In this document: positions 55,036 to 58,499 of the stretch, in pieces
Layout of the letters: each line of letters starts with the position of its first letter
How positions within the stretch are numbered: the stretch's first letter is position 1
Source of the DNA: Streptomyces antibioticus
GTDB lineage: Bacteria; Actinomycetota; Actinomycetes; Streptomycetales; Streptomycetaceae
DNA: 64,000 nt
Reading direction: 5' to 3'
Assembly (NCBI RefSeq): GCF_002019855.1
Contig: NZ_CM007717.1
Location: 1,182,452-1,246,451, forward strand
Translations under genes and position numbers: made by a program
The notes under the pieces: model-generated
Database searches by the model: none
What the model was told of the DNA's origin: nothing
The model's input: the letters and a program-made list of their open reading frames with translations, nothing else

Positions 55036-55446
55036 TCAGGATCCTGCGGGGACGCTTTCGATGATCTGGCAGACCACGGCGTTCTCCCCACGGTCCGCCG
55101 CTTGGCCGGCCGTGGCGCGCGCGGTCCGGAGGGTGGTGCGCAGGGCCTGGAGGTCGGCGATGCGGCGGTCGATGTCGGCGAGGTGTTGATCGAGGAGGTC
55201 GGTGACGAGGCCGCAGGGCTGCTCGCCGCGGCGCTGGAGGTCGAGGATGTCCTTGATCTCCTTGAGGCTGAGGCCGAGGGCCTGGGCCTGACGGATGAAG
55301 CGAAGGACGGGAACCGCGTCCTCGGTGTAGGTGCGGTAGCCGGCCGCGGTGCGCTCGGGCGGCTCGATGAGGCCGTTGGCCTCGTACAAGCGGACGGCCT
55401 TGGGGCTCAGCCCGGTCTGCGCGGCGATACGGCCGACGGTGAGCAT
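55036..55446 (-). CDS. MerR-family metal regulator (CueR-like)
   Basis: A 136-aa MerR: RIAAQTGLSPKAVRLYEANG, GYRTYTEDAVPVLRFIRQAQ, and LSLKEIKDILDLQRRGEQPC. Cys in EQPCGLV and VVCQIIES could form the metal site. ATG at 55446. It is divergent from the cyclodipeptide-synthase gene. A MerR-type promoter lies between them, oriented to activate the synthase and CopA, so copper or a related soft metal is the probable signal. Confidence 0.88.
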   Translation of the reverse strand: MLTVGRIAAQTGLSPKAVRLYEANGLIEPPERTAAGYRTYTEDAVPVLRFIRQAQALGLSLKEIKDILDLQRRGEQPCGLVTDLLDQHLADIDRRIADLQALRTTLRTARATAGQAADRGENAVVCQIIESVPAGS

Positions 55447-55483
55447 GAACGGATCCCTTCGTGCGAGTCCCGCCAGTGTGCGC

Positions 55484-55514
55484 TTGACCTTGCCCTAAGG
55501 ACAAGGTTTTAGCG
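55484..55514 (+). promoter_or_regulatory. MerR-type promoter for CDPS-copA
   Basis: -35 TTGACC (55484-55489), 19-bp spacer, -10 TTAGCG (55509-55514). The dyad ACCTTG-ccctaagga-CAAGGT (55487-55507) fills the spacer. The synthase ATG is 8 bp past the -10, so the mRNA is probably leaderless. Confidence 0.8.
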
Positions 55515-55521
55515 TCCGGGC

Positions 55522-56262
55522 ATGAGGACGAGCGCAGATCAGGACGACGGCTGTACGGCTGGGCTGACGGTGACACCGCTGAGCAGCCGGTGCGCCGAAG
55601 CGGTCAGGCGGGCCGAGCACGCCTGCTTCGGGATCAGCCCCTTCAACAGCTACTTCTCCACGGGCCGGATCCAGAAGCTGGCCGCGTGGGGGCTGGAGCG
55701 GTTCGAGCGAGTGGACTTCTTCGTGCCCGATGCGCCGAGCGCCTTCACGTTCGAGGCGCTCGGGTACGCACCGGAGAAGGCCGCGTGGAGGGCTCGCAGG
55801 CAGGGTCAATACACCCGCAACAAGATCGTCACCGCGTTGAGTGCCCTGGGTGTGCCCGATGCTGAGAAGCGTGTGCTCGGGTGGGCCGAGCTGGAGGACA
55901 ACGCGGCATTCGGACGGCTCCACACGAGCGGCCTTCGGCGGTACGACGAGGACGCGGGCTTCCGGGACGCGTGCCGGGACGCCACCGGCTGGGTCCTGGC
56001 CGGGAAGGTGCCTGCCGGGCAGCCGCCGGACGAGCAGCAGATCGAGTGCGCGGTCCAGTACTTCCTGGCCGAGCTGCCGCTGTTCATCGACACCCCGTCC
56101 ATCGTCGGCGCCGCCTCGTCGGTCTTCTGCTACCACCAGCCGCCCGACGTACTGCACCGCCTCTACCGGGGAGAGCTGTCCTGGCAGCCGGCCGCCGGCC
56201 AGGGCTTCGCCGTGGTCGCACCAGTCGGCCCACCCGCCGCGCCCGATCCCGTACGAAACTGA
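55522..56262 (+). CDS. tRNA-dependent cyclodipeptide synthase
   Basis: A 246-aa CDPS of the AlbC type, which joins two aminoacyl-tRNAs into a diketopiperazine. The signature ACFGISPFNSYFSTGRIQKL holds nucleophile S39. QYFLAELPLFIDTP supplies Y180 and E184. SSVFCYH gives Y204, and EDAGFRDACRDAT matches AlbC's middle helix. Normal family length. No oxidase, P450 or methyltransferase tailoring gene is nearby. It is the first gene after a MerR-type promoter and ends 17 bp before a CopA gene. Product amino acids cannot be read from sequence; a metal-binding diketopiperazine is inference. Confidence 0.93.
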   Translation: MRTSADQDDGCTAGLTVTPLSSRCAEAVRRAEHACFGISPFNSYFSTGRIQKLAAWGLERFERVDFFVPDAPSAFTFEALGYAPEKAAWRARRQGQYTRNKIVTALSALGVPDAEKRVLGWAELEDNAAFGRLHTSGLRRYDEDAGFRDACRDATGWVLAGKVPAGQPPDEQQIECAVQYFLAELPLFIDTPSIVGAASSVFCYHQPPDVLHRLYRGELSWQPAAGQGFAVVAPVGPPAAPDPVRN

Positions 56263-56279
56263 AAGCAAGAGGAACTGCC

Positions 56280-58499
56280 ATGGCTACCACCACCCCGGCC
56301 GAAGCCGATCACTCCATAGAACTGGCCATCACCGGCATGACCTGCGCCTCCTGCGTGGCGCGGGTCGAGCGGAAACTGGCCAAGCTGCCCGGAGTGAGCG
56401 CGACGGTGAATCTCGCGACCGCGACCGCGCACATCACGCGGGAGGACCCTGAGGTCTCACCCGAGCAGCTGATCGCCGCCGTCGAAGCCATCGGCTACGG
56501 CGCCGCCCCGATCCGCAGCCGGGTCTCGACCGACGCTGCGGCGGAGACCGAAGCGGCCGACGCCGAGGGATCCCACGTCGCCGGCCTGCGCCGCCGCCTG
56601 ATCGCCTCGGCGCTGCTGGGCCTGCCGGTGGTCGTCGTGTCGATGATCTCCGCCCTCCACTCCCCCGGCTGGCAGTGGCTCGCGCTGGCCCTGGCCACCC
56701 CGGTGGTTGCGTGGGGTGCGTGGCCGTTCCACCGGGCCGCGGCGCTGAACCTGCGGCACGGCTCGGCGACGATGGACACCCTGGTCTCGCTGGGCGTGCT
56801 GGCCGCCTACCTGTGGAGCGTCGGCACCATCCTGGCGGGCGGCGAGCACCTCTACCTGGAGGTCGCCGTCGTCCTGACGGCCTTCCTGCTCGCCGGCCGG
56901 TTCTTCGAGGCCCGTGCCAAGCGGCGAGCCGGGGACGCGATCCGGGCGCTGATGGACTTGGGCGCCAAGGACGTCGCCGTGCTCCGCGACGGTACTGAGG
57001 TCCGGATCCCGGTCGAGGACCTGGCCGTGGGCGACCTGTTCCTCGTACGGCCGGGCGAGAAGATCGCCACGGACGGAGAGGTCGTCGAAGGCGCGTCGGC
57101 GGTGGACGAGTCCCTGCTGACCGGGGAGAGCGTGCCGGTGGAGGTCGCGCCGGGCTCGCAGGTCACCGGTGCAACCGTCAACAGCCACGGACGGCTGACC
57201 GTACGGGCCACCCGGATCGGAGCGGACACCAAGCTGGCGCAGATCGCCGCCCTGGTGGAGCGCGCGCAGACGGGCAAGGCAGCGGTGCAGCGGCTGGCCG
57301 ACCGGATCTCCGCGGTCTTCGTCCCCGTCGTCATCGTCCTCGCCGTAGGCACCTTCAGCGTCTGGATGCTGACGGGCGCCTCCGCCGCGACCGCGCTGAC
57401 CGCGGCCATCGCCGTCGTCATCATCGCCTGCCCCTGCGCCCTGGGCCTGGCGACACCCACCGCGCTGATGGTGGGCACCGGGCGCGGCGCTCAGCTCGGG
57501 CTGCTCATCAGCGGACCGGAGGTACTGGAGTCCACCCGGCGGATCGACACCGTCGTCCTGGACAAGACCGGCACCGTCACCGAAGGCAAGATGCGTCTGG
57601 TCGACGTCGTACCCGCCGACGGCGAGGACAAGGACGAAGTCCTGCGGCTGGCCGGCGCCCTGGAGGACGCGAGCGAGCACCCCATCGCCGCCGCAATCGC
57701 CGCTGCCGCGCGCGAACGGCTCGGCGCCCTTCCGCCGGTCACCGGCTTCGCCAACACCCAGGGCCGGGGCGTGACCGGCCAGGTCGAGGGCCGCGCCGTG
57801 CTCGCGGGACGCGCCTCCTGGCTGGACGGTCAACTGCTGCTCCCGCTGCCCGGCGAGCTCGCCCGGGCACGCGACGCGGCCGAGGCCGCGGGCCGCACGG
57901 TCGTCTTTGCCGCCTGGGACGACCAGGTACGCGCCGCCCTCGTGGTCGCCGACACCGTCAAGGCAACCAGCGCCCAAGCGATCGCCGACCTCAAGCAGCT
58001 CGGGCTCACGCCGGTCCTGCTGACCGGCGACAACACCGCCGCCGCCCGCGCCGTGGCCGCCGAGGTCGGCATCGACCAGGTCATCGCCGAAGTCCACCCC
58101 GAGGACAAGGTCGCCGAAGTCCGGCGACTGCAGGAGCAGGGCCACGTGGTGGCCATGGTCGGCGACGGCGTCAACGACGCCGCCGCACTGGCCCAGGCCG
58201 ACCTCGGCCTCGCCATGGGCACCGGCACCGACGCCGCCATCGCCGCCTCCGACCTGACCCTGGTCCGGGGCGACCTCCGGGCCGCGGGCGATGCGATCCG
58301 CCTGGCCCGCCGCACCCTTCGTACGATCAAGGCCAACCTGTTCTGGGCCTTCGCCTACAACGTCGCCGCCCTGCCGCTGGCCGCGCTCGGCATGCTCAAC
58401 CCCATGATCGCCGGGGCCGCGATGGCTTCCTCCTCGGTATTCGTCGTCTCCAACAGCCTGCGACTCAGGCGCTTCCAGCCCCTGCATCAGACCAGCTGA
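56280..58499 (+). CDS. copA: copper-exporting P-type ATPase, CopA type (second copy)
   Basis: A 739-aa Cu(I) ATPase. N-terminal HMA CxxC at C22/C25 (GMTCASC), C384-P-C386 in the membrane, TGES, D428 in DKTGT, SEHPIAA and GDGVNDAAAL. It is closest in layout to the CopA at 24766-27027. ATG 56280 after AGAGGA, 17 bp downstream of the cyclodipeptide synthase and apparently in its operon. Not under a CsoR box; controlled by the MerR-type promoter instead. Confidence 0.94.
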   Translation: MATTTPAEADHSIELAITGMTCASCVARVERKLAKLPGVSATVNLATATAHITREDPEVSPEQLIAAVEAIGYGAAPIRSRVSTDAAAETEAADAEGSHVAGLRRRLIASALLGLPVVVVSMISALHSPGWQWLALALATPVVAWGAWPFHRAAALNLRHGSATMDTLVSLGVLAAYLWSVGTILAGGEHLYLEVAVVLTAFLLAGRFFEARAKRRAGDAIRALMDLGAKDVAVLRDGTEVRIPVEDLAVGDLFLVRPGEKIATDGEVVEGASAVDESLLTGESVPVEVAPGSQVTGATVNSHGRLTVRATRIGADTKLAQIAALVERAQTGKAAVQRLADRISAVFVPVVIVLAVGTFSVWMLTGASAATALTAAIAVVIIACPCALGLATPTALMVGTGRGAQLGLLISGPEVLESTRRIDTVVLDKTGTVTEGKMRLVDVVPADGEDKDEVLRLAGALEDASEHPIAAAIAAAARERLGALPPVTGFANTQGRGVTGQVEGRAVLAGRASWLDGQLLLPLPGELARARDAAEAAGRTVVFAAWDDQVRAALVVADTVKATSAQAIADLKQLGLTPVLLTGDNTAAARAVAAEVGIDQVIAEVHPEDKVAEVRRLQEQGHVVAMVGDGVNDAAALAQADLGLAMGTGTDAAIAASDLTLVRGDLRAAGDAIRLARRTLRTIKANLFWAFAYNVAALPLAALGMLNPMIAGAAMASSSVFVVSNSLRLRRFQPLHQTS

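Follow-up and report, generated by a model that had tools for sequence, protein, structure and literature searches.

Why should a gene for a tRNA-dependent cyclodipeptide synthase (CDPS) lie between a MerR-type promoter and the gene of a copper-exporting ATPase? The question is raised by positions 55036–58499 of the window, the whole 64,000-nucleotide stretch of the Streptomyces antibioticus genome analyzed here. As shown below, the linkage between this CDPS and copper genes is real and repeated, is bound to one clade of CDPSs, and extends beyond one type of operon. For its meaning we offer a well-founded hypothesis, in which the CDPS may supply a small copper ligand. The core of the locus, in window positions, is as follows.

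55036–55446, minus strand: metal-responsive regulator of the MerR family, whose gene diverges from that of the CDPS (Pfam MerR models)
55484–55515, plus strand: MerR-type promoter, TTGACC / 19-bp spacer / TTAGCGT (sequence inspection)
55522–56262, plus strand: tRNA-dependent CDPS of the NYH subfamily, 246 amino acids (PF16715, TIGR04539)
56280–58499, plus strand: CopA-type P1B ATPase with an N-terminal HMA domain (TIGR01511, TIGR01525, PF00403)

The first-pass annotation described a complete CDPS with S39, Y180 and E184, located directly after a MerR-type promoter and 17 bp before copA, with a divergent merR gene and without a cyclodipeptide oxidase, P450 or methyltransferase beside it. All of this was borne out. 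The protein scores well above the cut-offs of both family models (PF16715, 237.5 bits versus 27; TIGR04539, 274.9 versus 45). In addition to the three catalytic residues, N42, Y204 and H205 are present, which places the enzyme in the NYH subfamily; in AlbC numbering, all six residues (S37, N40, Y178, E182, Y202 and H203) are retained. An AlphaFold2 model, built with 74 sequences, has a pLDDT of 92.3, and all 50 of the Foldseek matches listed for it are CDPSs, the best among them being YvmC (TM 0.81). The best solved relative by sequence is Rv2275 (2x9q, 137 bits). Three conserved cysteines near the active site were considered as a copper site and dropped, since C151 and C203 align with cysteines of AlbC. 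The CDPS stop codon and the CopA start are separated by 17 bp, and a Pfam/NCBIfam scan of the ten surrounding window genes found no cyclodipeptide oxidase, P450 or methyltransferase adjoining the CDPS, which is the sole CDPS found in the genome.

The promoter combines TTGACC (55484–55489) with TTAGCGT (55509–55515) across a 19-bp spacer, and contains a perfect 6-bp dyad, ACCTTG-N9-CAAGGT, at 55487–55507. With up to 3 mismatches allowed, a search of the 8.5-Mb genome finds its 28-nt core at this one place and a reversed-pattern control nowhere. Since the ATG of the CDPS is located 6 nt downstream of the −10 element, the transcript is predicted to start at or next to this ATG, giving a leaderless mRNA with the CDPS first and copA co-transcribed.

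A scan of a genome collection with the window CDPS identified 15 loci, all in Streptomyces, and a CopA homologue and a MerR-family gene adjoin the CDPS in every one of them. Ten have the gene order of the window (arrangement A). In the remaining five (arrangement B: L006, L007, L009, L010 and L014), the CDPS gene is followed by an opposite-strand merR gene and then by copA, and the MerR is only ~40% identical. A CopZ-like gene, under the cut-off of that family, lies between merR and copA at L006, and only the first half of copA is visible at L014, at a contig end. In addition to the 15, three linear plasmids (pFRL6 of strain F12, one in S. liliifuscus, and pI of S. mirabilis P16B-1) carry arrangement A among copper, mercury or arsenic genes. 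The window pairing recurs in ~20 other Streptomyces loci and is thus not unique to the window genome. Neither restriction to one genome nor loss of catalytic residues in relatives, both named in the first-pass annotation as grounds for abandoning the idea, was found in the sequence data.

Within the genus as a whole, a CDPS match is present in 143 of 392 genomes, at more than 150 places. Of 150 places listed, 103 were retrieved with wide flanks and 30 with 1.5-kb flanks, 16 were unfetched, and one is the window itself. The window-type locus is rare in this sample, some places of which were unseen: among the places listed it occurs in five same-genus genomes including the window's own (~1% of the sample).

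The promoter is kept along with the genes. All 18 rows of arrangement A, window included, have TTGACC, the 19-bp spacer and a −10 element of the form (T/C)TA(G/A/C)(C/G)GT; two of these rows are repeat fetches (L050 of L012, and L064 of L005). The gap between promoter and ATG is 6 nt, except at L008, where it is 7 nt. A degenerate element with the same spacing, TTGCAC or TTGAAC, is present in four of the five arrangement-B rows, with L006 unmatched. Of 23 rows examined, 22 have a recognizable element, and the same promoter-to-ATG spacing is observed in 21 of them.

To place these loci among other CDPSs, we defined a superclade as the CDPS loci with at least 45% identity to the window CDPS, excluding the window and its copy L001 from the count. 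The copper markers were CopA, CopZ-like HMA, cupredoxin-DsbD, PpoB2, CopY/BlaI with M56, CopC/D and SCO1, each matched at ≥28% identity over half the marker; MerR was not counted. A copper marker lies within 5 kb of the CDPS in 30 of 48 superclade loci versus none of 87 other CDPS loci, where the 48 include two pairs of one locus fetched twice and the 30 short-flank loci are left out. Because a Fisher test ignores relatedness among loci, the contrast is given as counts. Of the 18 superclade loci that lack a marker, 16 make up a thiol-redox group, described below, and the other two are L092 and L093. A near miss among the other 87 is L082, where a P-type ATPase match (28% identity) is found ~5.2 kb away; MerR-like matches of 34–38% are found near L030, L122 and L147. 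A general tendency of Streptomyces CDPSs toward copper genes is therefore rejected.

In a careful tree of 65 rows, with 19 outgroup rows and five long-branch outgroup rows barred, the superclade has a support of 100/100. Within it, the 21 copA-type rows (including L092) form one clade with moderate support (82/85), an outcome that the first-pass annotation had proposed to look for. The thiol-redox group is also one clade (98/96), and the CopY/M56 type described below falls into two. Another, quick tree has 195 rows and places those of copA type inside a 90-row clade with a support of 100, of which 69 rows are database proteins taken without individual genome context. The two trees differ in the position of the Streptomyces CopY/M56 group, which is sister to the copA clade in the quick tree (90) and joins the thiol-redox group in the careful tree (97/91). 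Six rows were dropped beforehand (L004, L005, L064, L079, L080 and L104); in L004, L005 and L064 the match ran beyond the gene's own stop, and L104 is short.

A second regulator class is tied to the same superclade. At L051, L058, L060 and L090, the CDPS gene is followed directly, on the same strand, by genes for a BlaI/CopY-like regulator and an M56 peptidase, and at L090 (a plasmid of NBC_00637) CopC/CopD come after these. The same regulator–peptidase pair is found near the CDPS in other orientations at L094, L095, L106 and L107. SCO1 is nearby at the first two of these, and L107 has a copper ATPase containing a cupredoxin domain in its vicinity. SCO1, CopC/D or CopA is thus nearby at six of the eight loci; the marker-panel count found none of these at L060 and L106. 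The L060 regulator, the only one of this second type that was scanned, scores 38.4 bits against the CopY model TIGR02698 (cut-off 121.95), so we label it CopY/BlaI-like only.

In a third context, comprising 16 loci from Streptomyces and another genus (L063, L069, L072–L076, L078, L081, L083, L105 and L108–L112), the CDPS gene is followed by genes for a cytosine/purine-type permease and a rhodanese, and a TrxB-like gene is present in all except L069. As annotated, L075 and L063 also contain a subtilase, a LysR regulator and a thioredoxin reductase that exceeds its cut-off, as well as a thioredoxin-like protein with a signal-peptide-like start that is under its cut-off (65 bits). These loci look like a thiol-related type of CDPS cluster that was not met in the papers examined. 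A further setting is found on S. mirabilis pI (L092, 9588–12804), where a second CDPS, 61% identical, overlaps a gene for an MdtH-like major facilitator superfamily (MFS) protein, which in turn comes after the gene of a pyridoxal-phosphate (PLP) enzyme, in an operon of overlapping genes. This enzyme belongs to the cysteine synthase superfamily and is nearest to SbnA, under that cut-off. Pairs of MFS and PLP-enzyme genes recur on this plasmid (L089, 435–2851; L092, 6–8 kb downstream).

What the CDPS contributes is less certain than the linkage. Our tentative preference is that it is co-transcribed with copA and makes a diketopiperazine, likely cysteine-containing, that binds Cu(I) and assists CopA in keeping copper low. 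Metal-bound MerR would activate one leaderless CDPS-copA mRNA. The residue that the CDPS loads into pocket P1 would then be cysteinyl, or else prolyl or some other small one, and the ring would be exported or retained as a low-molecular-weight thiol ligand, buffering Cu(I) while CopA pumps. In such a scheme the CDPS adds to copper resistance and is dispensable for it. A broader proposal, which we regard as possible and hold with less confidence, is that cysteine-containing rings serve throughout the superclade as a tRNA-derived thiol ligand for buffering or exporting Cu(I), made in the copA-type loci from a leaderless pump mRNA, with parallel CopY-like and thiol-redox versions.

The nature of the ring was approached through the substrate pockets, for which eight P1 and seven P2 residues are defined in PMC5816076 (Gondry 2018). 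In the window CDPS these are CGFPWLFF (P1) and AWVGQPD (P2). Cysteine occupies the first P1 position (pocket position 33) in all 46 superclade loci compared, versus 1 of 114 others, and in 67 of 69 database relatives within the copA-type clade, the other two having leucine. The P1 motif is CGFPGLFF in four of the eight CopY/M56-type loci, CGYPS(L/F/M)FF in three and CGFPWLFF in one; it is CGYPSFFF at L093 and mostly CGFPM(L/M)FF in the thiol-redox group (14/16). Among characterized enzymes, PMC5816076 gives a cyclo(Cys-Cys) (cCC) group, with 11 characterized of 60, and reports that CDPS 102, with P1 VGYPSIFF, makes both cyclo(Cys-Gly) (cCG) and cCC. It also gives the prolyl-accepting motifs LGLPWLFF, LGFPWFMF, CGHPWLLY and VGLPWFFF. 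From contexts and pocket residues together, a cysteine-containing diketopiperazine, putatively Cu(I)-binding, is predicted as the likely product, and we prefer it because it joins the copper genes, the thiol-redox genes and the PLP enzyme. A proline-containing ring could also be made, and would fit the window pocket at least as well. Pocket and context thus point toward a thiol-containing product, though not conclusively.

Several observations weigh against a copper-binding ring that assists CopA. A search for orthologues of the window MerR (≥75% identity, 384 genomes, up to 10 candidates scored per genome) found 10 places in 9 genomes. All 10 have a CopA homologue next door, the one at G269 being damaged; the CDPS is present at five and absent from the other five. 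Copper export can thus do without the CDPS, and the idea that the CDPS is essential to the MerR-CopA operon was rejected. An internal deletion at L184 has spared the start and the end of the CDPS, which are still in frame with each other. What is left downstream of the promoter at L183 is some 17 codons from the 3' end of the gene, recognized by a DNA match to the end of the CDPS and the start of CopA in the window (E 7e-20). No clear CDPS remnant was found in the orthologous operon at L185–L187. Conversely, L068 has an intact CDPS and a CopA without a large internal stretch. These remnants and the damaged CopA indicate that the CDPS was lost at least twice and that its partner was damaged once.

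Other difficulties concern the pocket, the regulator and the surroundings. The window P1 is at least as close to the prolyl motifs as to the cysteine motif. Aligned to CueR, the window MerR keeps C120, lacks C112 and has a cysteine in place of Ser77, C112 and C120 being the two loop cysteines of CueR. A Pfam scan of the ten window genes found no exporter beside the CDPS other than CopA and a CadD-like gene, and a copper marker is within 5 kb at none of the 16 thiol-redox loci. In the available portion of PMC9195940, curing S. mirabilis of its plasmid, which bears two such CDPSs, hardly changed copper tolerance; transfer of the plasmid to S. lividans raised it, and the CDPSs are not mentioned in that portion.

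The pattern of presence and loss is what might be expected of a weapon, and the host is a Streptomyces. The diketopiperazine might instead be directed against neighbours: made and released when copper is high, it could serve as an antibiotic, an ionophore or a signal, with copper export protecting the producer and no need for the ring in the producer's own copper buffering. Such a role would suit the related CDPS of the S. mirabilis plasmid, whose gene overlaps that of an MFS exporter, itself after a PLP-enzyme gene. We consider release unlikely, however, as marker-panel searches show no recurrent exporter other than CopA beside window-type CDPSs (off-panel neighbours being incompletely surveyed), and the wider superclade is found largely among metal-handling genes.

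The CDPS might also be a passenger in a metal-resistance island, without a role in metal handling and merely placed under a strong inducible promoter. This would account for loci on linear plasmids of large size and in islands of arsenic, mercury and copper genes, and for the half of the orthologous operons sampled in the genus that lack the CDPS. Other observations speak against a passenger. The pairing is kept in two arrangements with different MerR types and has a counterpart in the CopY/M56 setting, the distance from promoter to ATG is held almost constant, and the other CDPSs lack copper genes nearby. Furthermore, dN/dS for the CDPS is 0.16–0.29 in all but one of 11 pairs, the exception being two nearly identical sequences with 0.49, and for CopA it is 0.05–0.20 in 10 pairs; the CDPS is under purifying selection where present, yet facultative. 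We therefore regard a mere passenger as improbable.

Which metal the operon answers is a separate matter, on which the genes flanking the core also bear.

53079–53342, minus strand: HMA-domain small metal chaperone (PF00403)
53342–54460, minus strand: DsbD-like membrane protein with a cupredoxin domain (PF13386, PF13473)
54579–54974, minus strand: small protein, export predicted by eye (homologues near several relatives)
58604–59203, plus strand: CadD-like transporter (PF03596)
59330–60274, plus strand: PpoB2 membrane protein, a copper chaperone according to Pfam (PF09948)

The DsbD-like/cupredoxin and HMA-chaperone genes recur near relatives, and PpoB2 near some of them. The small protein has no Pfam or NCBIfam match, and its homologues are found at L002, L003, L011, L015 and L016. 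The CadD-like gene is outside the conserved core, within the metal island; the panel search found it only in the window and in the close relative L068.

Copper is likely the inducer of the window operon, given a CopA that exceeds the copper cut-off and neighbours of copper type. The window CopA scores 553.2 bits with the copper-subfamily model TIGR01511 (cut-off 397); it also passes the general heavy-metal cut-off and that of the cadmium subfamily (393 versus 313.5). It contains the CPC and MxxSS motifs, characteristic of P1B-type ATPases. The regulator is less clear. It has only two cysteines, C78 and C126, both retained in all 18 aligned sequences including the window's, and is under the curated cut-offs of CueR, CadR/PbrR, ZntR and MerR (99.2 bits with the CueR model TIGR02044, cut-off 147.4). 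Deducing the inducing metal from these residues was not possible; the cysteine set differs from that of CueR, and C78 is as in sensors of Hg, Zn and Pb. The operon could accordingly answer another thiophilic metal (Hg, Cd, Zn or Ag) that the product serves, with copper or silver export being incidental. The absence of CueR's other loop cysteine and the CadD-like gene that follows would be consistent with this. With the copper-subfamily score of CopA, the cupredoxin, HMA and PpoB2 neighbours, and related CDPSs near CopC/D and SCO1, another metal seems decidedly unlikely. Least probable, and very unlikely, is a role in which the ring is a by-product and the CDPS, when metal stress sets in, depletes certain aminoacyl-tRNAs, with slower translation or a drain on free cysteine. 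CDPSs do use aminoacyl-tRNA by definition, and control by a stress promoter would link the charging of tRNA to the amount of metal. The comparative data do not call for such a role, and the pocket has retained residues as would a specific synthase.

Further genes in this part of the window were noted. An arsenic-type block at 46575–51548, judged by eye from translations, comprises ArsR-like (49268–49582), aquaporin-like (48441–49394), flavin monooxygenase-like (frame 47386–49308), ArsC-like (50129–50548) and TrxB-like (50553–51548) genes, with a shorter, remnant-like ArsC-like stretch at 49604–50092. A 460-amino-acid frame beside the metal genes (51642–53024) has no Pfam or NCBIfam match and a 98% identical copy at L068. 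Two distant DUF1326-type proteins are encoded near a PpoB2 gene (60361–61158 and 62442–63095), and homologues of one or the other are found near several relatives (L004, L013 and L066). At the end of the window lies what is likely, judged by eye, the C-terminal part of a fatty-acid desaturase-like protein (63641–63928).

For most bacterial cyclodipeptides, no biological role is known. A CDPS that is predicted to come first in a metal-induced export operon offers an inducer ready to be tried, well-defined conditions, and an easy mutant experiment on the purpose of its ring. Should that ring bind Cu(I), copper-handling metabolites would gain a new chemical class and, as far as we know, their first member derived from tRNA. 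In the open-licence literature, as represented by titles, the beginnings of abstracts and term counts, no CDPS tied to copper handling was found. A word search did not find copper in the available text of PMC5816076, PMC5767969, PMC2922099, PMC11610984, PMC13062777, PMC12945691 or PMC4159871; both terms occur in PMC9734747, PMC10979467 and PMC9604106, the available text of which does not tie a CDPS to copper handling.

Compared with known systems, the locus combines familiar parts in a different order. It shares with MerR/CueR-controlled copA operons the divergent regulator, the 19-bp spacer with a dyad, and CopA, but a CDPS gene is inserted between promoter and copA, and the MerR cysteine set is unlike that of CueR. 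The CDPS has the fold, the catalytic Ser/Tyr/Glu and the N-Y-H trio in common with AlbC, Rv2275 and YvmC. The window CDPS is in a copper operon rather than a biosynthetic cluster, without adjoining tailoring genes, and its P1 (CGFPWLFF) differs from that of AlbC (LGVVLLFL). A small molecule is likewise tied to copper handling in copper-induced or copper-binding metabolites such as methanobactin, fluopsin C and the bufferins, which are made by ribosomal or other pathways. Pulcherriminic acid binds Fe(III) after P450 oxidation of cyclo(Leu-Leu), whereas no P450 was found beside the window CDPS. Like the ring proposed here, it is a metal-binding diketopiperazine derived from a CDPS, YvmC (PMC7731078). 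The resemblance to the cCC/cyclo(Cys-X) group concerns some superclade members: by comparison with PMC5816076, the CGYPS-form motifs of the superclade (three of eight CopY/M56-type loci, and L093) are close to the VGYPSIFF of CDPS 102 and the other motifs less so, while the window CDPS has at the AlbC-119 (fifth P1) position a tryptophan that is common with prolyl-accepting enzymes.

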